From Rhizobium leguminosarum (lineage in GTDB: Bacteria; Pseudomonadota; Alphaproteobacteria; Rhizobiales; Rhizobiaceae), in NCBI RefSeq assembly GCF_004123835.1, contig NZ_MZMU01000002.1:1-64000 (forward strand): a stretch of DNA of 64,000 nucleotides. Reading direction: 5' to 3'. Shown piece by piece: positions 35,201 to 62,704 of this stretch. A model generated the notes under the pieces. It saw only the letters and a program-made list of their open reading frames with translations. It made no database searches and had not been told where the DNA came from. Every line of letters begins with the position of its first letter. Within the stretch, counting starts at the first letter, position 1. Position numbers and translations under genes: made by a program.

Positions 35201-35389
35201 ATGCCCGACAATAAGGCATTCGAAACGCCCGAACAGGTTGCGACCACCGCGACCGAAGGCACAGAAATGGCACAGTCAAAGACTGACAAGGCGGATGCTG
35301 ACGCCTTGGAAGCCGCACTCGCCGATCTCGACGATCTCGATTTTGACCTTGAGGATCTTGAGGACAAAATCGCACCCCTTGCGTTGTGA
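35201..35389 (+). CDS. Acidic 62-residue precursor/scaffold peptide
   Basis: First gene of the biosynthetic operon. The peptide begins MPDNKAFETPEQVATT and ends DFDLEDLEDKIAPLAL; the second half is very acidic (DADALEAALADLDDLDFDLE) and probably helical. Ser and Thr occur only up to residue 28 and there is no Cys, so the last 34 residues contain nothing a Ser/Thr dehydratase could act on. That fits a scaffold (pearlin-type) peptide extended at its C-terminus better than a lanthipeptide precursor. It has a GGGAGA ribosome-binding site about eight bases before ATG 35201. No double-Gly cleavage site is visible. Role inferred from context. Confidence 0.75.
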   Translation: MPDNKAFETPEQVATTATEGTEMAQSKTDKADADALEAALADLDDLDFDLEDLEDKIAPLAL

Positions 35390-35428
35390 GCGGATTTCTG
35401 GCGCGCGAGTAGCGCGGGTTCCATTCCG

Positions 35429-36073
35429 GTGCGAAGCGCCGAGCTAGCAAGGACAGTTCCATTGCAAATTGTCATCATCGCCGGGAGCCAGCGCCCCGGC
35501 TCACAGAGTCGTCGGCTCGCCGAACAGATACAGGGGCGGTCTGCGTCGAGGCGACCCGACGTCGAAGCTCGAATAGTATCGCTCGTCGACGCGAAGGTGC
35601 CGATGTGGGATCCCGAATTCATGAGCGACTCCGATCTCTGGCGGGATTCATTCGGGGGAATCGAGCGTAAGTTCCGGTCGGCCTCCGGCTTCATCTTCGT
35701 GGTCCCAGAATATGGCGGCATGGCACCGCCGATCCTTAAGAATCTCTTCCTACTCGACCGGAACCACATCTTCGCTCACAAACCTGCGCTCATCGTTGCC
35801 ATTTCCGAGGGGCTTGGGGGAGCTTACCCGATCGCAGAGCTGCGGATGTCGAGTTATAAGAACACACGCATCTGCTGGATTCCGCACCACGTGATCGTGC
35901 GGCGCGTCAGTCAGTTCACCGCCGCGACCGACGAAGCCCCTAAGGCGAATTTGCCGCAGGCCTGGACCCGCATCGATCATGCCTGCGACGTCCTGTTTGC
36001 CTATTCGACCGCCCTGCAGGGCATGCGAAGCAGCGCTAATGTCGATCTTTCCCTTTTTCCGAACGGTATGTGA
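35429..36073 (+). CDS. NADPH-dependent FMN reductase-like flavodoxin-fold protein
   Basis: A 214-residue protein of the NADPH-dependent FMN reductase family: LQIVIIAGSQRPGSQSRRLA, where GSxRxxSxSR is the FMN phosphate loop, and GFIFVVPEYGGMAPPILKNL with PEYGG contacting the flavin ring. It could supply reduced flavin or act directly on a peptide-bound residue; flavin oxidoreductases are part of known scaffold-peptide pathways. The start appears to be GTG 35429 without a strong ribosome-binding site; a later start is possible since homology begins near residue 12. Confidence 0.8.
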   Translation: MRSAELARTVPLQIVIIAGSQRPGSQSRRLAEQIQGRSASRRPDVEARIVSLVDAKVPMWDPEFMSDSDLWRDSFGGIERKFRSASGFIFVVPEYGGMAPPILKNLFLLDRNHIFAHKPALIVAISEGLGGAYPIAELRMSSYKNTRICWIPHHVIVRRVSQFTAATDEAPKANLPQAWTRIDHACDVLFAYSTALQGMRSSANVDLSLFPNGM

Positions 36074-36104
36074 CAGGGCAATGATGTCCGAGGAGTGAAC
36101 ACGC

Positions 36105-37931
36105 ATGTTGGCTGCGTCTACCAAACCCATCGCCTCGGAAGCGGTATTGTCTGCCTCGGCGAAGAAAGCTGCGCCAATAGCGGAGCTGCATTGGGACCTG
36201 ACCAACATTCATCCTGACGTCACCGCGCCGAGTTTCACGGCAGCCCTGATACGGGTTCACGCCGAAGTTAGGGAGCTCGTCGGACGGGCTGCCATCGTGG
36301 CGGAAACCGAGTCCGGGGAGCTTCCAGCCGCTATTTGCACCTTTGATCGAGCATGGTGTGAGTGCCGCGATACGATCCAAGAGCTTTATGTCTTCTGCGA
36401 CGCGCTGCGGATTTGCGGTGACGACAGACGCGTGGTGGCGCGGGCGCGGAAATCCACAATCAGCCTAGCCGTTCTCAATCAGCGTGCACCACGACCAATC
36501 CTCACTCGGCTCTCTGAAGAAACAGCGCAACTCCGCGATACCGTTCTTAATCACCTGCCCTCCGTTGCCGGTCGGAATCGCTTCGCGGGCTGGATTGTGG
36601 AGGCGCTGGCACCTCCACAATTCGACGGTACAACGGAAGACGACGGCCAATTCCAGCGGGCATACACGACACTCCTCGACGACCTGACCATTGAGGTCGT
36701 CAATGCCGAAGGGCAGCTAGTCGGTACTCTGCCTGCGCGTCTCGCCAATCGTACTCTTTGGAGCGCAGAACCGGAGAACCGCCAGACGCTTGCGCACGCA
36801 ATCCAGGCTGCTTGGGCTCCTCATCAGGAACTCGTTTCAGCGGTGCTTCACCGCAAGGCACGGCCGAGCTTAGGCGCACATGCGTTCGCCGACGCACTCC
36901 GGGAGGATGGACTCTCACCACAAACTGCGCATGCCGTGATGGAGGTTCTTGGCGAGGGACGCGAAACTGGACAAGGCGGGCTTGCAGTGCAAGCAGGCTT
37001 GGCTGGAAAGAAATCCCTCGCGCTCTGGGACATCGCCGCCTTCCATCCACCTGCGGGGCGGATTGCTCTCGATAAAGCAATTGAAGACGTCTCGCGTGCC
37101 TTCGAGACGATTGATCCGGACATGCGCGCCTTCTTCGAGACAGCTGTCACACGTGGCTGGATCGACGCTCGACCCTCTGCACCGGGGCGAGTCACGACCG
37201 ATCTTCAAACTGCAATATCGCGCAGGGGCCAGCCGCTCGTTTTCATCAACTACGACGATTTGCCGCGCAACGCGATCCGGCTCGCTCACGAATGCGCGCA
37301 CGCCTATCATTTTCACGCCGTGCGCGCGATGCCGGCCGAGCGACACGCAATCGCCTCCCCCCTAGCGGAAACGGTCAGTGCCATCGCCGAGCAGGCGCTT
37401 CGCGACGTCTGGGCCAAAGACGGAAAGCAAGATGTCGTCGCGGCCCACCGCTTCGCCTGGACAGAGGCAGAAAGTCTGGCCACCAATCTTATTCAGCTAC
37501 CCATGAATGCGGCATTAGAGCTTAGCCTCGCACGTGCTCAGACGGCGCCGGCGCCAAGGGAACTTCAGAAGATTGCTCACGATTTGGCTCGCTTTTGGCA
37601 AGGCGGGGCGATCCGGCCCTGGGACGATCTCGCGTGGAGCTGTGCGCCGATCCTCTCCACCGCAAGGAGATTTCACGGAATGCCGTACGTGATAGGCTTC
37701 CTCACTGCGCAGCCGTTGCTGAGCGCGCGCGATACAGACGCCAACAGCTTTCCCAAACGCTTTCAAACCCTACTGTCGGACATGGCGACCGCAAGCACAG
37801 AGGACGTTCTTGGCGACGTCCTTAGTGGCCCGGCACACGCTCCCGAGCAATGGCGCGCCGCATTGGCCCACGCACAGCACCGCCTCGAACGGCTGAAGGC
37901 CTACATCGCTGGTAGAGGGCTTGCCGGATGA
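36105..37931 (+). CDS. M3-family-like metallopeptidase
   Basis: A 608-residue protein with an M3 (oligoendopeptidase F/thimet) type active site: HECAH at 395-399 with a Glu 23 residues later in ETVSAIAEQ, and a largely helical N-terminal half. M3 enzymes cut short peptides inside a deep channel. Its place right after the precursor and FMN-reductase genes suggests that it trims the leader or releases the finished product from the scaffold peptide. AGGAG precedes ATG 36105, and the stop overlaps the next ATG by four bases. Confidence 0.8.
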   Translation: MLAASTKPIASEAVLSASAKKAAPIAELHWDLTNIHPDVTAPSFTAALIRVHAEVRELVGRAAIVAETESGELPAAICTFDRAWCECRDTIQELYVFCDALRICGDDRRVVARARKSTISLAVLNQRAPRPILTRLSEETAQLRDTVLNHLPSVAGRNRFAGWIVEALAPPQFDGTTEDDGQFQRAYTTLLDDLTIEVVNAEGQLVGTLPARLANRTLWSAEPENRQTLAHAIQAAWAPHQELVSAVLHRKARPSLGAHAFADALREDGLSPQTAHAVMEVLGEGRETGQGGLAVQAGLAGKKSLALWDIAAFHPPAGRIALDKAIEDVSRAFETIDPDMRAFFETAVTRGWIDARPSAPGRVTTDLQTAISRRGQPLVFINYDDLPRNAIRLAHECAHAYHFHAVRAMPAERHAIASPLAETVSAIAEQALRDVWAKDGKQDVVAAHRFAWTEAESLATNLIQLPMNAALELSLARAQTAPAPRELQKIAHDLARFWQGGAIRPWDDLAWSCAPILSTARRFHGMPYVIGFLTAQPLLSARDTDANSFPKRFQTLLSDMATASTEDVLGDVLSGPAHAPEQWRAALAHAQHRLERLKAYIAGRGLAG

Positions 37932-40201
37932 CGCTAGACAAAAGCATGATGGCACCAGCACTTCCCGCAAACGAATACGTGGCGTCGTTTCTACGGCATT
38001 TCAGTATACGCAGCGCTGGTTTTTCGCTTGGTCTCCTTGATCCAATGCGCAGCACGAAGACCATTTCGCTTCTGAGTGAGAGCGCTGACCAATCCGAAAT
38101 AGAGCGTGCGTATGAGGTTGAGAGTACTCGCGGGCGCGAAGCACTCGCGGCGCTTCTTGAACGCGAGGACATTCAACAGGCGATATTCATATCAAGCCCA
38201 CAAGCCTATCAAAACGCATTGCGCAAGGCACGCCGGGCTCTCTCGGAGGGCCGCACCGACGCGGATTCTCGCCGCGCGCTGCGGGCGATCTTCACCTATG
38301 TCCAGAGACTCGTTTCCAAGAACGAGACGACCAGCTATTTTGGCCCAATGAACTACGGGGACGTCGATCACGCGTGGCCTGGCCGTCTCGACTATGCCGA
38401 GGAGATCGCAAGCAATGCAGCCGGCGGCGGGGAGGCACTCGTTACGGCGCGCCAAGTCTTCCTGAGCTACTGGGCCCTCGCAGCAATCGCTAAAGCACTG
38501 TCCCACGACCCAGACATAGCCGCTGTTCTGCCGGTGACGACGCACCCCCTCCTGGTACGCAATGGCGAGAAAGTTGGCATTTCCGGTGGCCGATCCTTTC
38601 CGCTCAGCCCTCCACTCCGCGCGGTATTTGACGCAGTCGACGGAAAAAGCCCACAGGCTGCACTCGTCGCGCGGCTCGGCCCCGGCGTGGGTAAACTGAT
38701 CAGCCAACTGATAGCAGCGGGATTGCTCGTGAGGGAACTTGCCGTTTCTTCGTCGTCCGCCGAAGCACTTCTCGACCTACGCACGCGACTGGCTGCGCTT
38801 CCAGAAAGTTCAGGCAGAATGGTGTGGCTCGGCCGCCTTGATGATTGGGATGCATGGACCCGCACGATGAGAGATGCACTGTTTGAACAGCGTCGCTTGT
38901 TGATTGATGAAGGGGAAACGCGTTTCACAGCTCAGACGGGGCTCCCCGCTCGGCGAGGCTCGGGTGAACTCTACGAGGATCGCTCGATCTATTACGAGGA
39001 AACGCGGGGCTCACTCGCGCGGATGCGGATTGGCCGGCCGTTACACGACGAACTCTCCGCCCGGCTTGCTCCCGCGTTGGCACTCGCCGCAGTAGAGGGA
39101 CTTCAACGCTGGCGCGCGCTCGGACGAAATGCCAATGCAATTCTAGAACGTGCCGTTCCCGATGGAACGCGGCTTAGTTTCGTCGCGTTTGTAGAGGCAA
39201 TGCGCTCAGCCGGGCTTACCCTACTACCACCCACGCCGCCTTCGCCCGCGGCCGTAAAGCTCAAAGAGATCGTTGCGAACGCCGGGGCAGCACCAGGGGC
39301 GGAGGTGCATGTCGATCCCGCCGAACTCGATCTGCCGCACTTACGTCGCGGCGCCTACGGTCTCGCTGACATCTTCCTGGACGCTTCTTGCCCGGAGGAT
39401 GTCGAGCACGGCCACTACCGGGTCGTATTGCGGAAGATTCACCACGCGCTACCAATTCCAAGTTGGCTCACGACAATGCACCCGGATCCTGGCGCCGTTG
39501 AGTGCGACACGAGACGGTGGCTCAACGAGGCCGGCTACTCGCGGTTGATTGCCCTTGAGGTTCGCAGGCGAAACAAAGGTTTCTACGCCTTCCCCGGACG
39601 CCGCGCAGTCTATTCCGAGCAGGTCGTTGACCCCGCCATTCAGACGGTGTCGGCGTCTCGTCTTGAGATTGAGCGGGACGAGGATGGCGGTGTGGCACTC
39701 TTCGTCTCCGGAGAATCGGAGCCCGTGGCGCTATACCTGACGCTTGCAGACCACCTGGGTTTTGCCCCTTTCGCCGCGCTCACGACACCTTGGTTCGTCT
39801 TGCCAACCGTCGAGTTGGACACCTTCACGCCGCGCATCGTGCTCGGAGGGGCCGTCATTCAGCGAGCCCGCTGGCGCACAGGTGCCGCGGTGGCATATGC
39901 GGCCTGCGAAGGGCGTGGTCCGTTGCGGTTCGCCCGAACGCTAGCCTTCCGGCGCCAGCTCGGCCTTCCCGAACGCGTCTTCGTGCGCACGTCCGTCGAC
40001 CGCAAACCTGTTTTTATCGACTTTGCGATCGAGCTTTGTCTCGATCTCGTCGTGTCGATGGCCCAGCGATCTGACGAACTCCTCATCGAAGAAATGCTAC
40101 CGGGGCGCGACCAACTTTTCCTTCATCAGAAGCTCGGCGGCTTTACCAGCGAGCTGAGAATCGGCGTAGCGCTGACGCCAGTGCCGGAGATCAACGTATG
40201 A
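37928..40201 (+). CDS. LanB-like tRNA-dependent enzyme 1 (glutamylation-type domain only)
   Basis: A 757-residue member of the lantibiotic dehydratase N-terminal family. Key motifs: IRSAGFSLGLLDP near residue 28, SKNETTSYFGPMNYG with Lys131, YEDRSIYYEETRG near 355, DTFTPRIVLGGAVIQRARWR near 635, and the closing LPERVFVRTSVDRKPVFIDF with EMLPGRDQLF and SELRIGV. Full LanB enzymes carry about 300 further residues for glutamate elimination; this protein ends right after the glutamylation domain, the architecture of split dehydratases and of peptide aminoacyl-tRNA ligases. With a Ser/Thr-free peptide tail, I favour amino-acid addition. It is coupled (ATGA) to both neighbours. Confidence 0.85.
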   Translation: MTLDKSMMAPALPANEYVASFLRHFSIRSAGFSLGLLDPMRSTKTISLLSESADQSEIERAYEVESTRGREALAALLEREDIQQAIFISSPQAYQNALRKARRALSEGRTDADSRRALRAIFTYVQRLVSKNETTSYFGPMNYGDVDHAWPGRLDYAEEIASNAAGGGEALVTARQVFLSYWALAAIAKALSHDPDIAAVLPVTTHPLLVRNGEKVGISGGRSFPLSPPLRAVFDAVDGKSPQAALVARLGPGVGKLISQLIAAGLLVRELAVSSSSAEALLDLRTRLAALPESSGRMVWLGRLDDWDAWTRTMRDALFEQRRLLIDEGETRFTAQTGLPARRGSGELYEDRSIYYEETRGSLARMRIGRPLHDELSARLAPALALAAVEGLQRWRALGRNANAILERAVPDGTRLSFVAFVEAMRSAGLTLLPPTPPSPAAVKLKEIVANAGAAPGAEVHVDPAELDLPHLRRGAYGLADIFLDASCPEDVEHGHYRVVLRKIHHALPIPSWLTTMHPDPGAVECDTRRWLNEAGYSRLIALEVRRRNKGFYAFPGRRAVYSEQVVDPAIQTVSASRLEIERDEDGGVALFVSGESEPVALYLTLADHLGFAPFAALTTPWFVLPTVELDTFTPRIVLGGAVIQRARWRTGAAVAYAACEGRGPLRFARTLAFRRQLGLPERVFVRTSVDRKPVFIDFAIELCLDLVVSMAQRSDELLIEEMLPGRDQLFLHQKLGGFTSELRIGVALTPVPEINV

Positions 40202-41907
40202 ATGCCGACACGCAAAGGCAGCAAATGGCAACTCCCCTGATGGACCCTCTGGAGCGGGCTCTTGAGGGGCGACCCTTGGTTCTCTTGGTGGGAGCCGACC
40301 CGTGGCGTCTGCCGTGGCTCGAAGCATTTGCTGCCCGTCAGCGTGAATCGGGCGATATGGTAGCTCTTTGGGACGCCGCAGGCGACCCCCTACGCCCGCA
40401 CAGCGCCCTTGCCAGTCTCGTTGCACCCTTTCAGTCCACAGTCGCGCTTGAAGCGCCAGAACTACTCATCGGCTTCGGTCCCGAGCTTGCGGCGTTGGCT
40501 GGCGACGATGGGCCACTTTCGCGCATCGCGCTGCCGGCCTCTGAAAGACGGCTTTCGCGCGAAAGTGAGTTCAATTTCCGCATCCTGGAGGCCTCAGTTC
40601 GATTCCTCCGCACATGTCTGGCGCAACTGCCTAGTGCCTCGGGACGCAAGCTTCTGGTTGTCGCTCCCGCAATCGATCGGCTCGATAGGCTCACCTTGCT
40701 CGCTCTCGATCAGCTTCGTAGAAGTGAGGGACGGTCCGTTACCATCGTCATCGGCCTGTCTAACGAGGCGTATAGAACGCTTGCTGACGACGACGAGCCC
40801 GAACGGCATCTTCTTGGGGTTGAGAAAGAACGCCGCCGTTTCCTTCGCGATTTTATCCGGACCACCGATCCCGAGGTGGTCAAAGGCCCCTCTGAGTGGG
40901 ATGCGCCGCAGGCGGCAATTCTGGCCGAGTTCCCCAATCTGCCCGATGAGCCCGGGGCGATCCTCCGCGCCATCCAGGCCGGGCAGCTCGACGTTGCGCT
41001 CGCCTCCCTGACCCGTCCGTGCAGCCGACTGTCTCGAGCCGAACGAAGTCGCTTGCTTGGCCTCACGCACGCCTATCTTGGCAATTTCGCGCTCGCGCTT
41101 GATGTCTATGAGCAGGCACGAGTAGAAGCGGAGGATCCGATATCGCGTGCCAGGGCGAGCGTCTATGTCGCGCTCCTCCTGAACAAACGCCTCAGCGAAC
41201 TCGACCGGGCGCAGGCCGTGATCGAAACGGCGATGGGAGAAATTTCCGGTCTCATTGATGGCAATGCGCGCCTCGAGCGAGCTTGGCTTTTCAACGTCCA
41301 CGCACTTGTTCATTTCCGTCGCCGTGAAAACGACGCAGCTTTCGAAAAATGCCGCGAAGGCCTAGCAGAGGTAAAAACCGTTGCCGGCAGTGATGCGATG
41401 CACCTCAAGGTGAACCTGATCAACAACATGAGTACGCTTCGCGAAGTGTCTGGCGACCCAGAGGGCGCGCTGCTGATCTGGCAGCGTTTCCAAAAGCTCA
41501 GCGGCGCCGGTGATCCACTGTTTCGCAAGGTGTTTCTGTTCCGTAATGCCGCCCTCTTGGATGCATGCGGGCGTCCAGCGGACGCCTATGAGGCGATGCT
41601 AGATTGCTGGCGTGAAACAGAAACTCTCTCCGATGTGTTCCATCAGGCATATGTAGGCTACGATTTGGGGGTCCTGGCAGCGCGCCTCGGCCAGCTTCAG
41701 AGAGCCGAGCGTTGGTTCGAGCGGGCCGGTGAGGCTGCCGTAGCTTGTCGCAACAGCGACGCCGCCGCGCGCGCCAAACATGCCGCGGCTCTCGTCGCGG
41801 ACGCTCCCAATGGCATCGCCACCACAAACCTCGGTTTGACCGGTAGCAAGCTTGGGCGACCCTTCCACCTCATTCACATCCCGCCAATCACGGGGGCATC
41901 GCAATGA
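40198..41907 (+). CDS. TPR protein with degenerate ATPase-like N-terminus (1)
   Basis: A 569-residue protein. The first 230 residues resemble a STAND/AAA ATPase that has lost its P-loop: RPLVLLVGADPWRLPWLEAF where the loop should be, and KLLVVAPAIDRLDRLTLLAL in place of Walker B. From about 270 the sequence is helical with TPR-like repeats (AYLGNFALALDVYEQARVEA, then ARLGQLQRAERWFERAGEAA). The C-terminal tail, GSKLGRPFHLIHIPPI, is shared with the second TPR protein of the operon (TRLNQPFHQINLY). It may hold the carrier peptide or the LanB-like enzymes together; this is inference. Starts overlap (ATGA) on both sides. Confidence 0.65.
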   Translation: MNADTQRQQMATPLMDPLERALEGRPLVLLVGADPWRLPWLEAFAARQRESGDMVALWDAAGDPLRPHSALASLVAPFQSTVALEAPELLIGFGPELAALAGDDGPLSRIALPASERRLSRESEFNFRILEASVRFLRTCLAQLPSASGRKLLVVAPAIDRLDRLTLLALDQLRRSEGRSVTIVIGLSNEAYRTLADDDEPERHLLGVEKERRRFLRDFIRTTDPEVVKGPSEWDAPQAAILAEFPNLPDEPGAILRAIQAGQLDVALASLTRPCSRLSRAERSRLLGLTHAYLGNFALALDVYEQARVEAEDPISRARASVYVALLLNKRLSELDRAQAVIETAMGEISGLIDGNARLERAWLFNVHALVHFRRRENDAAFEKCREGLAEVKTVAGSDAMHLKVNLINNMSTLREVSGDPEGALLIWQRFQKLSGAGDPLFRKVFLFRNAALLDACGRPADAYEAMLDCWRETETLSDVFHQAYVGYDLGVLAARLGQLQRAERWFERAGEAAVACRNSDAAARAKHAAALVADAPNGIATTNLGLTGSKLGRPFHLIHIPPITGASQ

Positions 41908-44360
41908 GCAGTGTATCCTGGCAAATCCTTCCTGATCTCGTTGTCCGTCATGCAGGTTTCCCTCTGAACTTGCTTGAAATGCTGCGGCTGCCGGCCGTCG
42001 CCGCCGCGCTCGATCGGCTGGCCGATCTCGAAGAAGCCTTGGAAAGCCTGCGCACAAATTTGCTTGCTGGCCCCTTTCCGGAGGCCGTGAGTGCGACTGC
42101 TCGAGGGGACCCGATGCGACGGATTCTGTCTAAGCTTCGCTCACGGGTGGGTCGCAATAGTGATCTCGCGGGGCTGCGTGACACACGCCGGACCCTGTCG
42201 ATTGAGTTTGGTCAAGGCGAACTCGGGCGCGGGCTTGACGAGATCGCCGCACTGGCGGAGACGGTCGCGTCGGTCGAAGCTGAAGTGCGGACGCTTTATG
42301 GGCAAGAGCGGGTGAATGTGACGGCAGCGCTCCGTCGCCTTTATGCCGAGGATCCTTGGCTGGAGGAAGCGATCCGCGTCTCCAATCCGGACTTCCATGA
42401 TAGTGCATTTCAGTCGTTCACACGCGGGGCAATAAATGTTCGACGGGCACAAGAGCGTCGGTTCGCCACCTATCTTCATCGGTTTTGCGCCAAGAATGAT
42501 ACCGCCAGTTTCTTTGGGCCAATGGGCTACGGTTCGCTATTTGACACGGCGATAGACGACGCGACGACAGCCAAGGCGCCGGGCAAACATAACGGCCGGA
42601 AGGTCTATCTTGCCTTTTGGGCAGTGCAGGAACTGGCGCGTCTGATCGCGGCAAATCCGCGGCTGCGCCCACATCTTATCGTGCGCGTTCATCCTCTTTT
42701 GCACATTGACGGTGAGCGTGCCGTTCTGGGCGGAAAGGAACTGCCTCTTCCAGCAGAGGCGAGGCATCTCCTTCAACGCGCTTGTACATCGGTAACTTGC
42801 GTATCCGAGGCCGCGACGACGCCCCTGGAGATGCGCCTCTTCGACAGACTTGTGGCGCGCAAGCTTGCCACGCTCGAAATACCTATTCCTTCGACTGTCC
42901 TCGACCCGCTCGCTTACCTCCGCCGTTTCGTGACAAATGCCCTAGGCCCGGCGGCGCATGAGGTGCTCCTGATTGTTGACCGTATCGAAGATGCGCTCGC
43001 CGGCATGGCTGCGGGCACGTTTGCAATGCGGGTGGCTGCGGCCGTACGGCTTGAGCAGGCGGTTGGCGAAATCGGACTTCCAACCCGACGTTCTGCCGGG
43101 GCAACATATGCGGACCGAACCCTCAGCTATGAAGAATGCGATGGCGGTGCCAACATCCTCCGGCTCTCTCCGGCAGCCTCGAAACGAGTGCTGACGCGCC
43201 TACAGCCGGTGCTCGATCTGATGGGAGCCTACGGATTGAGGCGCGCGCGCGACGTGCGCGCTACGTGCGTGAGCGCCTTCAGACTGCTGGCGGACGGGCG
43301 GAGTGCCATACCGTATGTCGAGTTCATCGATGGCCTCCACCGGCTCGACACTGACGGGAGACTCGAAAAGAGTGGCCGCGCGGCCGAGTTCCAGGAGAAG
43401 CTCGAGAACCTAGCGGCGATGCGCGTCTGCGATGGCGCCGTACGCATGGATGTCTCGGATGTCGCAGCTCTCGTCGGTGAGGATGACGGCTGCGGACTTT
43501 ACACCTCGCCGGATCTGCTATTTGCCGCACGTGATTTGCGGGCCATTGCAGAAGGAGAAGCAACGCTCGTTCTGGGGGAAACGCATCAGTTCGTCGCCTG
43601 TTGGGGCTCACAGATGATGTTCCATCCTCGCGCGGAGGACGCGCGCCAGCGAACAGTTGCGATGCTGGAGGGCATCGGCATCGGCACGCGTCTAGCGACA
43701 ATCCTGCACACGCGCGTGCACAAGGGGCTGGTCCATGAGAGCTTCCCCGGCACGTTCGTTGAAGTGTCGGGCGACGCAGGACCAGGCGCACGACGCATTG
43801 CGTTGCGTGACCTGAACGTCGCTATGCTTGGAGGAACACTGTCAATCGTGGATCGGACCTCGGGTACCGCGTTCGCCCTTTATCACAGTGGCGACGACAA
43901 GGCTCACATATGGGCCTTCGCCCCACCACGCGTCAGCCCGGCGCCCATCAGACTTGGCACCTTCACACCGAGGATCCATGTAGGAGACGTCGTTTATCAG
44001 AGGGCGCGCTGGGAGCTTGACGAAACAACCATCGCAACGCTTGACGCACGCCACGACGAGCTGACGGCAATGCGCGACTTGCGACGGATCGCACGAGAGC
44101 GTGGTATGCCCAAACGAACTTTTGTGCGCGTACCGAGCGAAAAGAAGCCACTGTTTCTCGATCTTGACAGCCCGAACGCGTGCGCCGTCGTTCACGAACT
44201 TCTTCGCGCCAATGGCCGCGGCTCGTGCAGCGAAATGCTTCCGGACTCCGACGGTTTGTGGTTGCGCGATGGACAAGATGACGGCTATTGCATCGAGTTG
44301 CGAACGACCTGCTTCCGTCCCGGCCCCGCAACATACCTTCCGGAAGACGAGCATGGTTGA
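41904..44360 (+). CDS. LanB-like tRNA-dependent enzyme 2 (glutamylation-type domain only)
   Basis: An 818-residue LanB-family protein without an elimination domain. Motifs: VVRHAGFPLNLLEMLR near residue 15, CAKNDTASFFGPMGYG with Lys197, TYADRTLSYEECDGG near 400, VLGETHQFVACWG near 555, GTFTPRIHVGDVVYQRARWE near 685, and the end MPKRTFVRVPSEKKPLFLDL with EMLPDSDGLWL and IELRTTCF. It keeps every family motif in good form, so it is probably active. Substrate amino acid and tRNA cannot be read from sequence. ATG 41904 overlaps the TPR stop. Confidence 0.85.
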   Translation: MSSVSWQILPDLVVRHAGFPLNLLEMLRLPAVAAALDRLADLEEALESLRTNLLAGPFPEAVSATARGDPMRRILSKLRSRVGRNSDLAGLRDTRRTLSIEFGQGELGRGLDEIAALAETVASVEAEVRTLYGQERVNVTAALRRLYAEDPWLEEAIRVSNPDFHDSAFQSFTRGAINVRRAQERRFATYLHRFCAKNDTASFFGPMGYGSLFDTAIDDATTAKAPGKHNGRKVYLAFWAVQELARLIAANPRLRPHLIVRVHPLLHIDGERAVLGGKELPLPAEARHLLQRACTSVTCVSEAATTPLEMRLFDRLVARKLATLEIPIPSTVLDPLAYLRRFVTNALGPAAHEVLLIVDRIEDALAGMAAGTFAMRVAAAVRLEQAVGEIGLPTRRSAGATYADRTLSYEECDGGANILRLSPAASKRVLTRLQPVLDLMGAYGLRRARDVRATCVSAFRLLADGRSAIPYVEFIDGLHRLDTDGRLEKSGRAAEFQEKLENLAAMRVCDGAVRMDVSDVAALVGEDDGCGLYTSPDLLFAARDLRAIAEGEATLVLGETHQFVACWGSQMMFHPRAEDARQRTVAMLEGIGIGTRLATILHTRVHKGLVHESFPGTFVEVSGDAGPGARRIALRDLNVAMLGGTLSIVDRTSGTAFALYHSGDDKAHIWAFAPPRVSPAPIRLGTFTPRIHVGDVVYQRARWELDETTIATLDARHDELTAMRDLRRIARERGMPKRTFVRVPSEKKPLFLDLDSPNACAVVHELLRANGRGSCSEMLPDSDGLWLRDGQDDGYCIELRTTCFRPGPATYLPEDEHG

Positions 44361-51066: not shown

Positions 51067-51081
51067 AACGGGAGCGCTCAG

Positions 51082-52260
51082 ATGGCAGGATCCAGTCAAA
51101 TCAGCGCGGTTGACGTGCTCATTGTCGGTGGAGGGATTGTGGGCTCGGCCTGTGCCGCTCTGACGTCAAGGGCCGGTGCCAGCGTCACGTTGATCGAGAC
51201 GAACAGCGAACTCGGGCTTGGCGCGAGCGCGGCCAAGTCTGGCCTCCTGACGACGGCGGCTGATGGCCGATCTGGTTCAGCCTACGCACGCTTTTCGGCG
51301 TTGGCCCTCGAGCGCCTTCGCGCGATCATCCCGATCCTCGAGACCGAGACCGGCGCAAGCGCGCAGGTTATTCGCAGTCGGCACCTACGGATTGCCGCCG
51401 GTACGGATGAAGAGACCCTGCTTGATAGCTATCTTGGGGCCAGCGACCTTCGCCAACCCGATGAGATGATGGTGGACGGAGAGGCGTTGCGCGCCAACCG
51501 ACCGTGGCTTTCAAGAAAAGTTACAAGGGGCATTATAGGCGGCCACGCACATCATCTCCAGCCAAGCAGTTTTCTAAAAATCCTTGCTTGCGCCTGCCGA
51601 CAAGCCGGAGTGACAATTGAAACCGGCGTGAAGGTGGCCTCGCTTAAGCGCCGTAATAGTCGCATCGTCGGCGTTCGGCTTGCGGACGGACGCGTCGTGC
51701 GCGCCGGCACGACAGTGCTTGCCGCCGGATTCGAGAGCGCCGCACTTTTAACCTCGATCGGTCAAGCAATACGCCTGCTTCCGGTTCGCGGTCAGATGGC
51801 CATCGTCCAAGGCCTGGAGGAAATCGATATTCTCGAAGACGTGATCAGTACCGGCCGCGGCTACATCGTGCCAAAGCCAGGCGGGCTAATCGTGATTGGA
51901 GCGACGCACGAGCGCGATAACAATAAGCCGATACTAACGCTTGGCGGCATGGGCACACTCGCTCGCATCGCATCGGTAGTGCCCGCACTGACCCGGCTGC
52001 CGATCGTCGGGACGTTCACGGGCATCCGGCCGATGTCTCCGGACGGTTTGCCTCTGATCGGGCCGGTCCCCGATACACAAGGGCTTTTGGTCGCAACGGG
52101 GCATGGTAGCCACGGCGTCCTGCTTTCGGTCGCCACGGGCGAAGCGATCCGCGACATGGCGGCCGGGTATTCGGTCACGACCGACCTCGCCACCTTCGAC
52201 CCGCGGCGCTGGGTAGGACGTGAACACCATGCTGCGATCCAGGTTGAAGGAGCACTTTGA
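51082..52260 (+). CDS. DadA-like FAD-dependent oxidoreductase
   Basis: A 392-residue member of the FAD-dependent amino-acid/glycine oxidase (DAO) superfamily. The N-terminal dinucleotide fold reads VDVLIVGGGIVGSACAALTS (GxGxxG) with Glu in VTLIETN binding ribose. Later blocks include HLQPSSFLKILACACRQAGV, the second FAD contact VLAAGFESAALL, VRGQMAIVQ, and the closing FTGIRPMSPDGLPLIGPVPD with ATGHGSHGVLLS. Family members oxidise amines or amino acids, so a peptide-bound or released amino acid is a plausible substrate. It follows the TPR gene by 15 bp and overlaps the next gene by four bases. Confidence 0.85.
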   Translation: MAGSSQISAVDVLIVGGGIVGSACAALTSRAGASVTLIETNSELGLGASAAKSGLLTTAADGRSGSAYARFSALALERLRAIIPILETETGASAQVIRSRHLRIAAGTDEETLLDSYLGASDLRQPDEMMVDGEALRANRPWLSRKVTRGIIGGHAHHLQPSSFLKILACACRQAGVTIETGVKVASLKRRNSRIVGVRLADGRVVRAGTTVLAAGFESAALLTSIGQAIRLLPVRGQMAIVQGLEEIDILEDVISTGRGYIVPKPGGLIVIGATHERDNNKPILTLGGMGTLARIASVVPALTRLPIVGTFTGIRPMSPDGLPLIGPVPDTQGLLVATGHGSHGVLLSVATGEAIRDMAAGYSVTTDLATFDPRRWVGREHHAAIQVEGAL

Positions 52261-54212
52261 TGAAGGCATTGTTCCTCGTTCCTCCTTTGACCGACCCAAC
52301 CCGGCTGCCTGAGCCGCTCCTGCGGGCCGCCGCAATGGTGCTCGCAACAGGTGGCGATATTTTCGATGCGAACCGCGCCGCCTACAGAACGTTCATAACG
52401 AATAATCACCTCATGGCGCGCCAACGCATTCTCAAGTCACGCTTGCCAGGGGACGGTCATGGTTTGATTTCCACCGCAGAGGAATTCTACGACTACTATC
52501 GTTTGCTCAAGTCGAGGCTCCACACCGACGATGGCGCGTGGAACGACCCAGATGCCATATTGCAAGATCTTGCCGACCCACGCCTCAATTTCGCAAAGCG
52601 CGACGCCTTGCGTCAGGACGTGGAACGCGCGCTTGATGCTGCAATCGCTCCATACCGGGCGAATATTCGGCTCAATGATTTGACGGCTATTCACACGACT
52701 GAGTCTAGCGCCGAGTTGGCTGCTGCAGCGCAGCTTGGCGAGGAGAACCCATTCTGCGGATTTTGGAACGCCTGCCTTTCGGACGAACCGCGCATGCGCA
52801 TGCCGCTATGGTTGGTCTGGCTGGACCGAGATCAGCAACTGATCCCGCTTGCGACGCTTCTCGCAATAGTGGCCGGGCGTTCCGCACCGCAGATTAGACT
52901 CGTCGGACCGTTTACCGAAAATCTCTCTCTTTGCGCAACAACGTGGTTGACCGCCTGCGTCGCGGGCGCACACCGTACCATGGATGAGGCGTTCGACGCG
53001 GTAGGCATCGACGGTCCTCCCACGGATGCAGGTGCGATCGCTGACGCCCTTCGTATCCTTGCGCCGGGACGCGCCTCAGAGCAAGTGACCTTGGAGCTTG
53101 ACCCAAATGAGTGCGGTAGGCTCGAAACGCTGACACATGCTTGTTCATCGAGCTTGCGGCTACACGTAGACAAGCCACTATCGATCGAGGCGCTTCAATC
53201 GCTTGCGGCACGCATTCCTGTACCCCGAAAATGGTCAGCCTCCTTACGTTTCGGAGAAGTTCCCAACGCCGAAACACTCGTCGCCCTCTCTTCCAGGGGC
53301 ATGCATTCGTTGCATTTCGAGGTGAAGGGCTTCGCGGGCTATGTCGACGAAGAAGCGGCGCGTGTCGGGATCGAGCGTGCTTTCGCCCACACTCGCGAGG
53401 CTGGGATGACTGTCCTTGCCTCGCTTGTCTACGGCTTTCCCCACGACAGTCCAGAAGCTTTTGAGCGCTTCCTGTCGTTCCTCTCAGGTCGTCTTGATGC
53501 GGTTGATCGCCTTGTGAGATTCAGACTTTTCCAGGTCCACAGTGGTTCACCGCAGGAACGCCTGCCAGGGGAGCATGGCATCGTTGAAGTTGTCGCACCT
53601 GATCCCAACCATGATCTCGCGAGAACGCGCGGTTACATCACTCGGTCCGGATTTGATAGCCGGCTGTTTGGCGCACAGGCCGCGCGAGCAATTGCTGCGC
53701 TCGCTGCGCCGAGCCCGCACTTTCCGGCAACGCCTCTGGCTATGGATTCGAGCGATTTCGGGGACGCCGGGCTAGAACACCCTATTCCTTCCCGAACCCG
53801 GTCTATGCTTCCTGTACCGGGCCGGGCCGATGTGGTGCGTCTCGATCCGGACGTCGTACTCGTGTCCGCGAATTATGCCTTTCGCGCACTCGACGCCCAG
53901 TTCCGTGGCTGGCTTCCCCGTCCTGGACTCCCGCTGCCGCTTCCACTCGCTGAACTGCAGTCTCTGTCTCTCTTGCGCAACCGTCGCACCGGCGCCGTCA
54001 CCGGCATCGGAGAGAGCGGACGTCGCCTCCTTGAGGCTTTGCGCGAGCAATGCACGGTGGATGAACTTGCGCGCGAAACCGCAACCGATCCAGCTGTTCT
54101 ATGCGTTGCGCTTGGGCGACTCTTGGCGGCGGATCTTATTCAGACCATGCCCAGTTCGGCTGCCTCTCCGCAGATCGAAGATGCCCCAACGACGAAGGAT
54201 CTTGCGCAATGA
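52257..54212 (+). CDS. Radical-SAM-like protein lacking the cluster cysteines
   Basis: A 651-residue protein shaped like RiPP-maturation B12-binding radical SAM enzymes. The N-terminus MKALFLVPPLTDPTRLPEPL with LRAAAMVLATGGDIFD recalls the cobalamin-binding half, and the middle has barrel strands (ASLRFGEVPNAETLVALSSR, then IERAFAHTREAGMTVLASLV and YGFPHDSPEAFERFLSFLSG). Where CxxxCxxC should stand there is only NPFCGFWNACLSDE, and no other such motif exists, so a [4Fe-4S] radical mechanism is unlikely. The C-terminal 150 residues contain a PqqD-like winged-helix-type segment (LREQCTVDELARETATDPAV). I infer a pseudoenzyme or peptide-binding role. Starts overlap (ATGA). Confidence 0.6.
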   Translation: MMKALFLVPPLTDPTRLPEPLLRAAAMVLATGGDIFDANRAAYRTFITNNHLMARQRILKSRLPGDGHGLISTAEEFYDYYRLLKSRLHTDDGAWNDPDAILQDLADPRLNFAKRDALRQDVERALDAAIAPYRANIRLNDLTAIHTTESSAELAAAAQLGEENPFCGFWNACLSDEPRMRMPLWLVWLDRDQQLIPLATLLAIVAGRSAPQIRLVGPFTENLSLCATTWLTACVAGAHRTMDEAFDAVGIDGPPTDAGAIADALRILAPGRASEQVTLELDPNECGRLETLTHACSSSLRLHVDKPLSIEALQSLAARIPVPRKWSASLRFGEVPNAETLVALSSRGMHSLHFEVKGFAGYVDEEAARVGIERAFAHTREAGMTVLASLVYGFPHDSPEAFERFLSFLSGRLDAVDRLVRFRLFQVHSGSPQERLPGEHGIVEVVAPDPNHDLARTRGYITRSGFDSRLFGAQAARAIAALAAPSPHFPATPLAMDSSDFGDAGLEHPIPSRTRSMLPVPGRADVVRLDPDVVLVSANYAFRALDAQFRGWLPRPGLPLPLPLAELQSLSLLRNRRTGAVTGIGESGRRLLEALREQCTVDELARETATDPAVLCVALGRLLAADLIQTMPSSAASPQIEDAPTTKDLAQ

Positions 54213-55480
54213 AGAACTACTACTTGCTGCTCGCCAATCGAGACTTCGTTAAGATCTGGATCGCGCAGGTATTCGCAGTCCTCGGCGACGCTTTTTACCG
54301 TGTTATGTTTCTTTGGATGGCCTATGAGCTGTCACGCTCGACAGTCATCGCCGGACTGGTGGTCTTTGCCGGCACCATCCCCTACCTTTTTTTTGGATTG
54401 CCGGGGGGAGTCTATGCGGACCGATGGGATCGCAAGCGCACGATGATCATCGCCGAGATACTGCGGACCGCCGTCGTGCTGATCATACCTTTGTCTTACG
54501 CCTTCGGCGCGTTGCAGATTTGGATCATAGCGGTTGTCGCGTTCGCACTCGCCTCGATCCGCTGCTTCTACCATCCTGCGATGAAGTCGACGGTAACGAG
54601 TATCTTGCGCGATGAAGAGCGGTCGGCCGGCGTGTCGTTGATGGAGGCCACAACGCGCTCGATGCAAGTATTCGGCATGGCCGCAGGCGGCTTCCTTATT
54701 GCCGCAACCCAAGCGGAGACTGTCACGCTTGTCTCAGCTGCACTATTCCTCGCCTCCATCATTGCCGTCGCACTCTTGGAAGTGCCAGCTCGGCGGCGGC
54801 ACAGAGCCGAACGAAGCCTGTTCGGCGAGGTCGCCGGCAGTTTCGCCTATCTCGCGAAGCGTCCACAACTCCTGTGGGCAATCATCCTCTTCTGTGCGGG
54901 CCTGCTTGTCGTCGTTGGGCTGGAAAAGGTGGCTATGCCCGTGGTCGCCGATCATGTCTGGGGGCGTGGTGCTGACGGCTTCGGCCTGATCCTCGCAGTG
55001 TTCAGCCTCGGCAGCATCGCAGGATCGCTCATCCTCGGACGCGGCGAGTTGCGAAGCCTGCCACCGCTGATGGCAGGAGGTTGGGCGCTTTGGGGTGTCG
55101 CTTACGCGCTGATGGCCTCGTCCCCCTACCCGCTTGCACTCGTGTTTGCCGCGTTCGCCGGGCTTGCCGATGCAATGGTCACCGTGCCGATGGTGCTGAT
55201 GATTCAGACGCGGGTCGACGACGAGCACATCGGAAAGATCTTCAGCATCTGGTCGACGGCTTCGTTCATCGGGGAGTCGGGCAGCGCACTCATGGTCGGC
55301 TTCCTCGTGCAGTCGCTCGGGGCGGTCCTAGCCTTCCAGATGGGTGGATTCGGCCTGGTGTTGGTGGCGTTGATCGGTTGGTATTACGTGCGGGACCGGG
55401 CTGGGTCAGGATCTCAGACCGATCTGCGACCCGACGAGGCGGCCGACCCCGTTCCCGTTCACAACACAGGAGAGATCTGA
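54209..55480 (+). CDS. MFS exporter
   Basis: A 423-residue major-facilitator transporter with 12 hydrophobic helices. The first reads YYLLLANRDFVKIWIAQVFA, and GLPGGVYADRWDRKRTMIIA is the conserved loop between helices 2 and 3. The pattern matches the MFS_3/enterobactin-exporter-like group. As the only transporter of the operon it probably exports the product or gives self-protection. ATG 54209 overlaps the preceding stop by four bases; its stop overlaps the oxygenase start by one base. Confidence 0.85.
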   Translation: MKNYYLLLANRDFVKIWIAQVFAVLGDAFYRVMFLWMAYELSRSTVIAGLVVFAGTIPYLFFGLPGGVYADRWDRKRTMIIAEILRTAVVLIIPLSYAFGALQIWIIAVVAFALASIRCFYHPAMKSTVTSILRDEERSAGVSLMEATTRSMQVFGMAAGGFLIAATQAETVTLVSAALFLASIIAVALLEVPARRRHRAERSLFGEVAGSFAYLAKRPQLLWAIILFCAGLLVVVGLEKVAMPVVADHVWGRGADGFGLILAVFSLGSIAGSLILGRGELRSLPPLMAGGWALWGVAYALMASSPYPLALVFAAFAGLADAMVTVPMVLMIQTRVDDEHIGKIFSIWSTASFIGESGSALMVGFLVQSLGAVLAFQMGGFGLVLVALIGWYYVRDRAGSGSQTDLRPDEAADPVPVHNTGEI

Positions 55481-56250
55481 TGGATCAAGATTTTTCAGCT
55501 CATATGCGCCGGTTCGCAGATCTGTGTGCTGGCCGTGTCCCCTACCTCCACGTGAGAGGGTTTCTCGATCAAACGGTCGCCAGCAACCTTGCGGATCAGG
55601 TTTCCACACAAGAGCCGCTCGCAGAATATCGAACGGTTCCCGGCATGGGTAAGATCGGATTCGCACTCGCAGAGGTAACAGACAAAGAAACGCTCACCGA
55701 GTACCTTCGGTGGGGTCAGCGGTTCGACAAGACAATGGACGGCCTGCTTTCGCCCGACCCTTTCCAAAAGATCAACGCGCTGATCGAGCGTTTGTGGCCG
55801 GCCGGCCTGACTCGCGCGAGCCTTCGCGGCCATGCTTTTCCTACTGGTATCGCGCGCCGTCACCAAAGCGGTTGGCACGGCGAGAGCGTCCACATTGACT
55901 GCCCGCCAGCACTGATCATTGATCAGGCGGGCCAGGCCGACGTGCTGCAGTTGGGAGTTGTATGCTACGCGTCGGCTTGCGAGGTTGGCGGCTCGCTTCA
56001 CATCTGGAGCGAGCTTGTGCTCGACGAGAACGCCTACCGGACCCGCTGCAATGCAGCAGGGGTCGAACGCCTCGATGCGTACCACCTCGGAGAACCTTCT
56101 GTTAGGATCGAGCCGCAGCCCGGTGATTTGGTGATCTTTCGCACAGCCCACCCGCACGCGGTCACCACAATCGAAAAGGGGCGCAGAGTGAGCTTCGGCT
56201 TCTTTCTCGGAGCCACAGGGCCCGATCAGCCATTACTTGCCTGGGCATAG
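55480..56250 (+). CDS. 2OG-Fe(II)-type oxygenase-like protein
   Basis: A 256-residue protein with a double-stranded beta-helix signature: HGESVHIDCPPALI gives the His-x-Asp pair, and the later PQPGDLVIFRTAHPHAVTTI with EKGRRVSFGFFLG supplies the distal His and the Arg that binds 2-oxoglutarate. It probably hydroxylates or otherwise oxidises a residue on the scaffold peptide or the released product. The start 55480 is fixed by the TGATG overlap with the exporter gene. Confidence 0.75.
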   Translation: MDQDFSAHMRRFADLCAGRVPYLHVRGFLDQTVASNLADQVSTQEPLAEYRTVPGMGKIGFALAEVTDKETLTEYLRWGQRFDKTMDGLLSPDPFQKINALIERLWPAGLTRASLRGHAFPTGIARRHQSGWHGESVHIDCPPALIIDQAGQADVLQLGVVCYASACEVGGSLHIWSELVLDENAYRTRCNAAGVERLDAYHLGEPSVRIEPQPGDLVIFRTAHPHAVTTIEKGRRVSFGFFLGATGPDQPLLAWA

Positions 56251-56261
56251 GGGGCAGCGTC

Positions 56262-58694
56262 GTGACCGCAACAGTAATCATCGATCCGGACCTTTCCGAT
56301 CAAATGCGTGGCGCGCCGCCTGCCTCTCTTACGGGCGAGCGGCACACCACCATCGGACGCTTTGCATGGCGGCTCTTGCCGGACGTACAACTACGCTCGC
56401 CTGGATTTCCCATCTGCCTTCTGCCGTCACACGACGACAACGCACTGCAACGTGCCTGGCAGGAAGAGTGCGACACAAGCGATGTTGTTGCCAGCATGCG
56501 AGGCGCGATTACCGAGCGCACGAGCCAGTTGGTTACAGCTTTGACGGCATCCGGGCGCACAGTGGAGCGGAACAGGTTAGCGAAGGCGCGAAGGCGCGTT
56601 ATCGCTGGCCATGCTCTCACGCCGGTCGATGGAGCGGTCCTGCACGCGCTTGGTTTAGATATGGAGGAGGAGGCTTGGAACGACGCGGTCGGTCGAATGC
56701 GCTCCGCTCAACATGGGCTCGACCATGCGCTGGAGCTAGCATTCGACGGAGGCATTCGTTCGTTATCGGAAGCTGTCAGGCGTAGCCGGCTCGAAGAGGC
56801 TCTGTTTATCTCCAACCCCGCTTTTCACGCGTGTCTTTTTCGTCCCAATGGCCCCCTTTCACGGTTTGGGCGTCGTGATATCCGTGAGCTGTTGACACTC
56901 TCGCGCTATCTTCGCCGGTTTTGCACACGAAATGAGACCGTTTCGTTCTTCGGCCCAGTGACAATCGCACGCCTAGATCCTAATGAGCGCCGCGCGCTGT
57001 TGGTCGGGGAACCGGCCGATATGCGGACATCGATAGATTGCAGCACTTGGGTGGCGCAGAGCCTCCAAGAGCGCGCACGCCGGCGCCTTCCTCCGCTTGA
57101 GCGCAGCGCACGACGCGACCCACTTTGGCGCCGCGATGGCGATATTCTCGTTCGGCAGTTGGACAACAAGCGACTTGCACCGGGGCCCGACGGAATTGCC
57201 CTTTGGCAATCGCTGGGCGATCTCCAATGCTTGATGGACTGCGGCGGTGCATTAGGTTTCGGCGAGGCGACGCTTCGCGCCGCGCTTGGGGCAATCGCGC
57301 CCGCATTGCGGTGGGGGCCAGAGCTGCCGTCGACCGAATTGTTCGTTCTCCAACGCCTCGCTAAAGAAATTGATGATGAACCTACGCGGACGCTCGCCGC
57401 GCTGGGTCGCCGTCTGGAAGTCGAGTCTTGGCCAACCATCGGCCAAACTTACCGGGAAGCCGAGCAGTTGATCGAAGCGCTCGGTATCACCGTCACCCGG
57501 CGTGACGGTAGCCATTATGCTGACCGCACATTGTTCAACGCTGAGTGCGCTGGTCCTTATATGAACCGCGTCACAATCGGAGCGGGACCGCTCGCTCGAC
57601 TACAGGAGGGACTCTCAGGCATCCTGCCTTTGTGCCTACTCGACGGTCTTTTGCGGCGGGCGGACGCTCGCGCTGCGCTGCGCGCACGCCTTGACGGGCG
57701 AAGCCGTCCACTCCTGGAGATGCTTGTCGATGACCAGGACAACGTTTCGCCTCGATCCGAAGCATTGTCGAGCGCCATGTCAGATCTCGTTGCCGCAGCG
57801 CCATGTGTCAATGGCGTTGTGCGCCTCGATCCGGCTGACTTGCAGCCGATCTTAGCACATTTCCACGCAATGCTCTCTGCCGAGGATGGCTCGCCGGAAA
57901 TCTGCCTCCCTGGTATAGATGTCCTAGCAGCTGGCACCGACCTTGAGAGCGCGCAGTGGGTACTTGGCGAGATCCATGATGACTCATCTTCAATCTTCGG
58001 CGGCTCTCTGACGCGGGTCCTCGATAACCCACAGACGCTTTACGGGACATTTTGCGCCGAGCTTGAGCGCGAATTCGACGTCTCTAATATGGCAACGGTC
58101 CTTTCCCGACGGCGTCACAAGGCTGTCACGCCAGAGATGCCAGGGCTGTCGATCGAATTTACCGGACGCTCGGAAAAGCCGTCTGAACTCCGAGCGCCGA
58201 TTTCCGAAGTGACGATTGACGCTGGGGGCACCGCCCTGACTTACGAAGGGCGCAATTATCATCTTTGGCCAGGCGATCTTTCTGGCGTGGTGCACGTTGC
58301 CCTTGCCTTGCCAACCGTTAAGGGCGTCCGTATCGATTTGGGCGACGCAACTCCACGTATTGTCATAGGAGACATGGTCTTCCAGCGCGCAAGGTGGCGG
58401 GTAGAGGGCGTAAGCCGCGTTCCGCTAGACCAAGCTTGGCGCTGGGCGCGTAGCCTGCGCGAGGATCGTGGTTTACCGCGCAGGGTGTTCGTCCGTCACC
58501 ATGCTGAGCCCAAGCCCATCTTTGTCGATCTCGATGACCCCGTACATATCGCCGATCTTACTCGGATCGGACCGGGACTGCTAAGTATAACCGAAGCTTT
58601 ACCGGATGTTGGTGAGCTCTGGTGGGCACCAAACGAGCAACCTCAATCGAGCGAACTGCGTATTGGCTGTCTGATGTGTTTTTCGACAGAATGA
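56262..58694 (+). CDS. LanB-like tRNA-dependent enzyme 5 (glutamylation-type domain only)
   Basis: An 810-residue LanB-family protein without an elimination domain; last gene of the operon. Motifs: VQLRSPGFPICLLPSH near residue 45, CTRNETVSFFGPVTIA with Arg223 in place of Lys, HYADRTLFNAECAGP near 420, VLGEIHDDSS near 565, DLGDATPRIVIGDMVFQRAR near 690, and the end LPRRVFVRHHAEPKPIFVDL with EALPDVGELWW (EMLP in relatives) and SELRIGCL. The KNET-to-RNET and EMLP-to-EALP changes set it apart from its relatives. The start is GTG 56262, 11 bp after the oxygenase stop. Confidence 0.82.
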   Translation: MTATVIIDPDLSDQMRGAPPASLTGERHTTIGRFAWRLLPDVQLRSPGFPICLLPSHDDNALQRAWQEECDTSDVVASMRGAITERTSQLVTALTASGRTVERNRLAKARRRVIAGHALTPVDGAVLHALGLDMEEEAWNDAVGRMRSAQHGLDHALELAFDGGIRSLSEAVRRSRLEEALFISNPAFHACLFRPNGPLSRFGRRDIRELLTLSRYLRRFCTRNETVSFFGPVTIARLDPNERRALLVGEPADMRTSIDCSTWVAQSLQERARRRLPPLERSARRDPLWRRDGDILVRQLDNKRLAPGPDGIALWQSLGDLQCLMDCGGALGFGEATLRAALGAIAPALRWGPELPSTELFVLQRLAKEIDDEPTRTLAALGRRLEVESWPTIGQTYREAEQLIEALGITVTRRDGSHYADRTLFNAECAGPYMNRVTIGAGPLARLQEGLSGILPLCLLDGLLRRADARAALRARLDGRSRPLLEMLVDDQDNVSPRSEALSSAMSDLVAAAPCVNGVVRLDPADLQPILAHFHAMLSAEDGSPEICLPGIDVLAAGTDLESAQWVLGEIHDDSSSIFGGSLTRVLDNPQTLYGTFCAELEREFDVSNMATVLSRRRHKAVTPEMPGLSIEFTGRSEKPSELRAPISEVTIDAGGTALTYEGRNYHLWPGDLSGVVHVALALPTVKGVRIDLGDATPRIVIGDMVFQRARWRVEGVSRVPLDQAWRWARSLREDRGLPRRVFVRHHAEPKPIFVDLDDPVHIADLTRIGPGLLSITEALPDVGELWWAPNEQPQSSELRIGCLMCFSTE

Positions 58695-59447: not shown

Positions 59448-59668
59448 ATCGCAAAAGCCGATGCGTGAACCGGATTAGATGTCGCGAACGACGGAGGGCT
59501 AAATTCCGCTGTATATTGACAACGAAGAGTGGTGTGTTCTGCTGAAGTCGTGCGTTGCCGATCCTCACCGGCATCGGCCACTTAAACAAAGTCCGAGCAC
59601 CCTGATTTCGTGTTGCGTACCCAATGGTCGCTGACAGCGGTCGAGGCAAACCCTATCGAGGACGAAGC
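59448..59668. other. No supported gene
   Basis: Intergenic stretch between DUF417 gene 1 and the PaiB-like gene; I see no operator repeat like those at the DUF417 promoters and no RNA gene. Confidence 0.3.
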
Positions 59669-60367: not shown

Positions 60368-60399
60368 AGCGGCTGTTGCAGCTTGAGACCCGACTTGCG

Positions 60400-62069: not shown

Positions 62070-62081
62070 TGCGAAAATATA

Positions 62082-62131: not shown

Positions 62132-62154
62132 CAAATCGCAAAAAGGAGAAAGAA

Positions 62155-62676: not shown

Positions 62677-62704
62677 TCGATCGCGACTATCAAGCAATGG
62701 GTTC

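Follow-up and report, generated by a model that had tools for sequence, protein, structure and literature searches.

The closest described relatives of the system reported here are the bha cluster of Bacillus halodurans C-125 and the amm, ame and lym clusters (ammosamide, ammosester and lymphostin), in which peptide aminoacyl-tRNA ligases (PEARLs) work on a scaffold peptide. BhaC1 and AmmC1 are described as tetratricopeptide repeat (TPR)-containing, flavin mononucleotide (FMN)-dependent Trp trihydroxylases, and the final Ala of the BhaA-Ala tag, LEEIEDKVAPLALA (PMC11962472), is described as being put on by the PEARL BhaB1 (PMC9850906), the published specificities being Ala for BhaB1, Gly for BhaB5 and Trp for BhaB7. 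In S. uncialis DCA2648, the ammosester producer, Amm8, 9, 11 and 18 are LanB-like and Amm9 is AmmB2 (PMC8210675), and the ammosamide pathway is described to use TldD/E and an M20 dipeptidase (PMC12424672). The tmo and tgl pathways (3-thiahomoleucine and 3-thiaglutamate) also have a PEARL acting on a carrier peptide, but it is a Cys-adding one and sulfur chemistry follows; tmo, from Tistrella mobilis, is given as an alphaproteobacterial pearlin pathway (PMC9303977). We analysed a 64,000-nucleotide stretch of Rhizobium leguminosarum (NZ_MZMU01000002.1, positions 1 to 64,000; hereafter the window), which carries at 35201-58694 an operon for an ammosamide/lymphostin-family scaffold and five PEARL-type proteins, and whose product is likely a Trp-derived aminoquinone (pyrroloiminoquinone-like) small molecule made via charged-tRNA residues at the scaffold C-terminus.

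The operon consists of 14 genes, all on the forward (+) strand and overlapping by 1-11 nt at 9 of the 13 junctions, in the order scaffold, FMN reductase, M3-type peptidase, B1, TPR1, B2, B3, B4, TPR2, flavin adenine dinucleotide (FAD)-dependent oxidase (DAO), Amm10-like protein, major facilitator superfamily (MFS) transporter, WelO5/2-oxoglutarate (2OG)-type enzyme and B5, where B1 to B5 are LanB-like. This confirms what a sequence-only reading had observed, namely a single-direction 14-gene run with mostly overlapping starts, encoding a peptide and five LanB-like proteins. Compared by its published descriptions and not by sequences, bha shares with the window a scaffold one Ala below PLALA, PEARLs of Ala, Trp and Gly type, a TPR flavoenzyme, a glycine oxidase and a quinone reductase; indeed the window scaffold tail, LEDLEDKIAPLAL, is nearly equal to the published BhaA tail. 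On the other hand, bha has a PEARL numbering that runs to BhaB7, a methyltransferase and further TPR proteins (PMC11117183), whereas the window has five PEARLs, one of them in an Arg-type clade, an M3 peptidase and a 2OG enzyme. With amm, ame and lym it shares the scaffold family, PEARL clades of the Leu, Trp, Gly and Arg positions, a TPR hydroxylase, a glycine oxidase and an Amm10-type protein, but in these clusters a TldD-like gene is found and neither M3 nor 2OG is matched, and in S. uncialis and Salinispora the scaffold is PLALA plus a follower and a B3-clade PEARL is absent. In Pseudovibrio exalbescens (locus L016, G199:C23) the genes from scaffold to Amm10-like protein are found in identical order and an MFS gene is present; unlike in the window, that gene lies ahead of the M3 gene, and B5 and the 2OG enzyme are absent.

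The scaffold gene (35201..35389) encodes 62 residues, 18 acidic and 4 basic, the last 20 without Ser, Thr or Cys, in agreement with the short acidic peptide and Ser/Thr/Cys-free tail of the earlier reading. It lies above the cut-off of NCBIfam NF033737 Amm_Lyn_leader (37.5 vs 30 bits), the ammosamide/lymphostin family of ribosomally synthesized and post-translationally modified peptides (RiPPs), and similar tails occur in relatives; against the TmoA model it gave E 0.03, below cut-off. The five LanB-like proteins carry the LanB glutamylation-type domain, the elimination domain being absent, and all five have the equivalents of R10, Y205, R208, D542, a conserved His, R715, F755, E801 and R803, tRNA-site Arg and Tyr included (numbering of TglB and BhaBC-Trp as in the published papers; alignment of 78 rows, in which the two rows without Arg803 are gaps). 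The ATP-site residues Asp542, Glu801 and Arg803 (TglB numbering) are thereby kept in 5/5, and Asp542 and Arg803 are the two residues described as separating PEARLs from split LanBs, which have Tyr and Leu there (PMC11117183). Furthermore, a search of the whole host genome for an elimination-domain protein (PF14028) gave 0 matches. Given the scaffold family match, the Asp542/Arg803 equivalents and the lack of an elimination-domain protein in the genome, PEARL-type scaffold chemistry is supported for these five proteins at the level of sequence. The PEARL route without an elimination partner, as first proposed, is hence supported, and the generic pearlin pathway of that proposal can be narrowed to what looks like an ammosamide/bha-type (pyrroloiminoquinone-family) gene set.

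In order to place the five proteins, a 78-row IQ-TREE phylogeny (quick method) and a 99-row FastTree phylogeny (one Rhodococcus fragment below 250 residues left out) were used. Clades are named after the S. uncialis PEARLs, with the amino-acid specificities published for the amm enzymes (PMC12424672); the positions AmmB1, AmmB3 and AmmB4 were assigned by gene order and AmmB2 alone from the paper. Four of the five fall with S. uncialis PEARLs. B1 (37928..40201) clusters with the AmmB3-position, Gly-type PEARL (100 starred in IQ-TREE, 1.0 in FastTree), B2 (41904..44360) with the AmmB1-position, Leu type (93 and 0.989), B4 (46784..49264, in an open reading frame (ORF) open from 46703) with AmmB2, Trp type (96 starred and 0.985), and B5 (56262..58694) with the AmmB4-position, Arg type (100 starred and 1.0). 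B3 (44353..46794) falls in a separate clade (99 starred and 0.992), hereafter a tail clade. An HDD insert is present in 7/7 rows of the Arg-type clade including B5, both insert columns being filled in 1/70 other rows; in AmmB4, Glu581 has been proposed as an Arg contact (PMC12424672). A Trp-clade PEARL was found in all 19 clusters studied over extended stretches.

We next compared scaffold tails with PEARL content in 27 distinct scaffold-bearing clusters, 19 of them over extended stretches and 8 within fetched loci alone. The B3 clade has six members (window, Pseudovibrio, Paenibacillus, Anoxybacillus, Actinoplanes flavus and Saccharothrix) and is seen solely in clusters with scaffold tails shorter than PLALA, and two further tail clades, X and Y, show the same behaviour. 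Among the 19 extended clusters, those encoding PLALA, whether a follower comes after it or not, have no B3, X or Y PEARL (10/10), PLAL clusters have one tail-clade PEARL, B3 (3/3), and PLA clusters have two (4/4; B3 and X in Anoxybacillus, X and Y in three actinobacteria), so that tail-clade PEARLs and missing residues are equal in number in 17/17 PLA, PLAL and PLALA clusters and in 17/19 overall. The eight additional clusters, classified by best hit within the fetched loci, all fit this count: six with PLALA in which no B3, X or Y was seen, a second Pseudovibrio strain with PLAL and B3 only, and Streptomyces I05A-00742 with PLA, X and Y. Best-hit and tree labels agreed for 97 of 100 sequences. 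Since the number of tail-clade PEARLs equals that of the missing residues, B3 is probably an Ala-adder, supplying the single Ala that the window tail lacks compared with many relatives. In Paenibacillus, which has seven PEARLs, the B3-, Gly- and Trp-clade members are at positions 1, 5 and 7 and would match BhaB1, BhaB5 and BhaB7 if the bha numbering follows gene order. Searches around the Firmicutes clusters matched 2/39 and 10/398 genomes, the matches outside the two known clusters being partial or weak, and none of the 24 proteins listed in a profile search was named Bacillus halodurans.

The tailoring genes were then considered. TPR1 (40198..41907, tail SKLGRPFHLIH) and TPR2 (49261..51066) belong to the same family as the S. 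uncialis homologue. In our mapping, AmmC1 Lys350, Asn432 and Lys602 would correspond to K330, N410 and K551 in TPR1 and to K355, N436 and R590 in TPR2 (offsets 14, 14, 16), one of the Lys sites thus being Arg in TPR2. TPR2 lies among the AmmC1-type rows (83/85, not starred) and TPR1, of a second type, pairs with a Pseudovibrio TPR protein (100/99, starred); the TPR1 tail motif also occurs in the second TPR proteins of Anoxybacillus and Paenibacillus, where the branching gives no resolution. Both are probably flavin-dependent Trp hydroxylases of the BhaC1 type. The FAD-dependent enzyme (51082..52260; PF01266, E 2.5e-59; ThiO 198.6 bits, below cut-off) is probably a glycine oxidase that frees an aromatic amine, as for BhaG/Amm14. 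A glycine-oxidase-like gene and a Gly-clade PEARL occur together in 17/19 clusters and are jointly lacking in the other two, which fits the published coupling of the two. The NADPH-dependent FMN reductase (35429..36073, start codon uncertain; PF03358, E 6.4e-19; 40% identical to its Pseudovibrio counterpart) is likely a quinone/hydroquinone switch in the role of BhaH/Amm17.

The protein at 52260..54212 has a cobalamin-radical-S-adenosylmethionine (SAM)-like fold, but the cysteine motif C-x(2-4)-C-x2-C is absent from it and no Cys is invariant among five aligned sequences. Both traits agree with the published description of Amm10, a TsrM/AprD4-like fold without the cysteine motif (PMC12424672). 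An hhalign comparison with the Kitasatospora Amm10-position protein gave a probability of 76.8 (E 2.1e-5, 179 columns), and for the C-terminus resembling a RiPP recognition element that is described for Amm10, weak winged-helix Pfam matches were seen in the window protein. Radical SAM catalysis is judged unlikely because the motif is absent. The sequence-only reading had named two TPR proteins, an FAD amine/amino-acid oxidase and a radical-SAM-shaped protein: all are present, the first two being refined to probable Trp hydroxylases and a probable glycine oxidase, and the third keeping its shape without the cysteine motif.

With regard to release, a TldD-like gene, common in such clusters but not defining for them, was found in 17/19 clusters and an M3-type peptidase in the remaining two, the window and Pseudovibrio, in which the TldD-like gene gave no match (gene absences across clusters refer to the fetched stretches at E<=1e-3). 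The window peptidase (36105..37931; TIGR02290, E 6.8e-45, below cut-off) has HExxH, is 29% identical to that of Pseudovibrio and is the likely release protease. The 2OG-Fe(II)-type enzyme (55480..56250; PF22814, 32.8 bits vs a cut-off of 27) is matched in none of the remaining 18 clusters. Iron/2OG halogenases generally have an HxG motif; this gene was considered as a halogenase and rejected, being of the WelO5 family by Pfam yet having HxD. The MFS transporter (54209..55480; PF07690, E 3.2e-34) is likely an exporter.

Reading substrates, order and product from these genes, their families, active-site residues and clades, and from the tail and co-occurrence patterns, the pathway would run as follows. 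B3 would add Ala to PLAL to give PLALA, B4 would add Trp next, and flavin-dependent hydroxylation of the indole would be the task of TPR2, possibly aided by TPR1, the FMN reductase moving the intermediate between quinone and hydroquinone. B1 would then place Gly on the quinone, from which the FAD oxidase would take off glyoxylate so that the amine remains, and B2 would donate a second nitrogen, Leu-type by clade. An Arg or other C-terminal residue added by B5 would mark release, for which the M3 peptidase would be responsible. Either before or after that step the 2OG enzyme would oxidise the product, and the MFS protein would carry it out of the cell. The earlier proposal of several residues added in turn is refined in that some PEARLs probably add residues that are retained, and others probably just donate nitrogen or mark release.

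Could the five proteins instead belong to a lanthipeptide or thiopeptide pathway, as its split glutamylating dehydratases? The LanB glutamylation domain is common to all five, and among solved structures TbtB (6ec7/6ec8), a split LanB, matches best by a wide margin (E 1e-29). Nevertheless, we regard this as very improbable, and reject it, since Asp542 and Arg803 equivalents, reported absent from split LanBs (PMC11117183), occur in all five and the host genome is without PF14028; the peptide also offers no Ser, Thr or Cys in its final 20 residues. A pearlin cluster with a product other than a Trp quinone, in which the conserved scaffold would carry different amino acid chemistry, would account for a gene content unlike amm and bha (M3, 2OG, no TldD/E), and the substrate of each window PEARL is a prediction; it is however unlikely given the Trp-clade PEARL of every cluster, the TPR hydroxylase homologues and the glycine-oxidase/Gly-clade pair, and the window holds all four of Trp-type PEARL, TPR Trp hydroxylase, Gly PEARL and glycine oxidase by sequence and clade. 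Several points nonetheless weigh against the Trp-derived aminoquinone pathway as drawn. Its activities and metabolite are predicted from the sequence of the operon, and the amino-acid assignments follow clade membership, the Bha and Amm PEARLs being known by published description; the IQ-TREE support of 93 for the B2 clade is below the star threshold. At the Glu564 site (TglB numbering), a residue reported as non-essential in TglB (PMC11117183), B1 carries Lys; Lys or Arg replaces the acidic residue in 15/15 Gly-type clade rows vs 0/62 other rows with a letter, and is a possible marker of Gly-adding PEARLs. The host genome has two PmbA/TldD genes outside the operon, and these could do the release instead. 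Pseudovibrio has M3 but no B5, so a residue added by B5 is probably not a strict requirement for M3 release.

As for the tail count, we consider it an evenly balanced proposal that encoded and PEARL-added tail residues are interchangeable, PLALA minus one or two residues going with exactly one or two tail-clade PEARLs, so that both how many PEARLs there are and what they add (Ala for B3, Leu for X) could be read from tail length, and that in the alphaproteobacterial version M3 release and 2OG oxidation would lead to a new alkaloid. The count could also reflect shared ancestry alone, with no functional link and B3 adding a residue other than Ala, which we find possible but doubtful. The clusters are indeed related and not independent (the 27 include five Salinispora and two Pseudovibrio strains; of the eight additional ones, four Salinispora and the second Pseudovibrio strain are 92-97% identical to counted ones, the three more distant being Actinokineospora, Streptomyces MJM8645 and Streptomyces I05A-00742). 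Moreover, Saccharothrix (PLGL) and A. flavus (PLG), with three tail-clade PEARLs each, are off the count, and the Paenibacillus B3-clade member is of unsure placement because of its long branch. Against ancestry alone, PLA is paired with differing tail PEARL combinations in Anoxybacillus and the three actinobacteria, and a PEARL is published to supply the one Ala by which BhaA falls short of PLALA (PMC9850906).

The scaffold principle, the clade chemistry and the missing Ala of BhaA are already known; the host group, the enzyme combination and the tail-to-PEARL count are new as far as seen. In the literature covered, no ammosamide/bha-type cluster in Alphaproteobacteria, M3 release or tail rule was found, the 2019 Science and 2022 Nature Chemistry PEARL papers, where earlier mention is possible, lying outside its scope. 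Given the different likely release protease and the additional oxygenase, the product of the operon is probably new. The determinants of PEARL amino-acid specificity are still open according to the published papers, and if tail length gives the residue number and the clade the adder, specificities could be proposed from genomes alone. The operon would also extend alkaloid-type PEARL chemistry to a rhizobial background.

At 59500-64000, the right flank resembles a plasmid of Rhizobium leguminosarum that is typed as conjugative, with 90.8% identity over 93%. A search with B2 matched 1/148 genomes of the genus, the host itself, and 2/199 of a family sample, the second being a weak 83-residue match. 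Since the flank resembles a conjugative plasmid and B2 matches are scarce in genus and family, the operon is rare in the genus and was probably acquired. The left flank (12000-35100) matched 1181 plasmid records, 492 of them Klebsiella, and also a rhizobial zinc-transport (azt) region.

Several minor observations concern the other clusters. Some amm/lym-type scaffolds have a follower after PLALA, Trp-containing in several (e.g. SNEAIQWRR, LAETRSW), and a loose scaffold pattern found none in 12 further loci (myxobacterial and others) outside the tail comparison. The PLG/PLGL clusters have all three tail clades and neither a Gly-clade PEARL nor a glycine-oxidase match, and probably make a different product. 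Seven-PEARL actinobacterial clusters (Kitasatospora, A. siamensis, S. xanthophaeus) have three additional PEARLs each, and Lentzea shows just three in all. An Anoxybacillus PEARL gene (L017:2604-5203) is broken across two reading frames and was kept as pieces; Streptomyces I05A-00742 lies on two contigs, with its Y PEARL in two ORF pieces and one PEARL that fits none of the named classes. Finally, on a Streptomyces sp. CL7 plasmid (L015:9494-17094) two LanB-like proteins stand next to an adenylation-domain protein, a pyridoxal phosphate enzyme and an acyl carrier protein, a neighbourhood which suggests that they act on a carrier protein.

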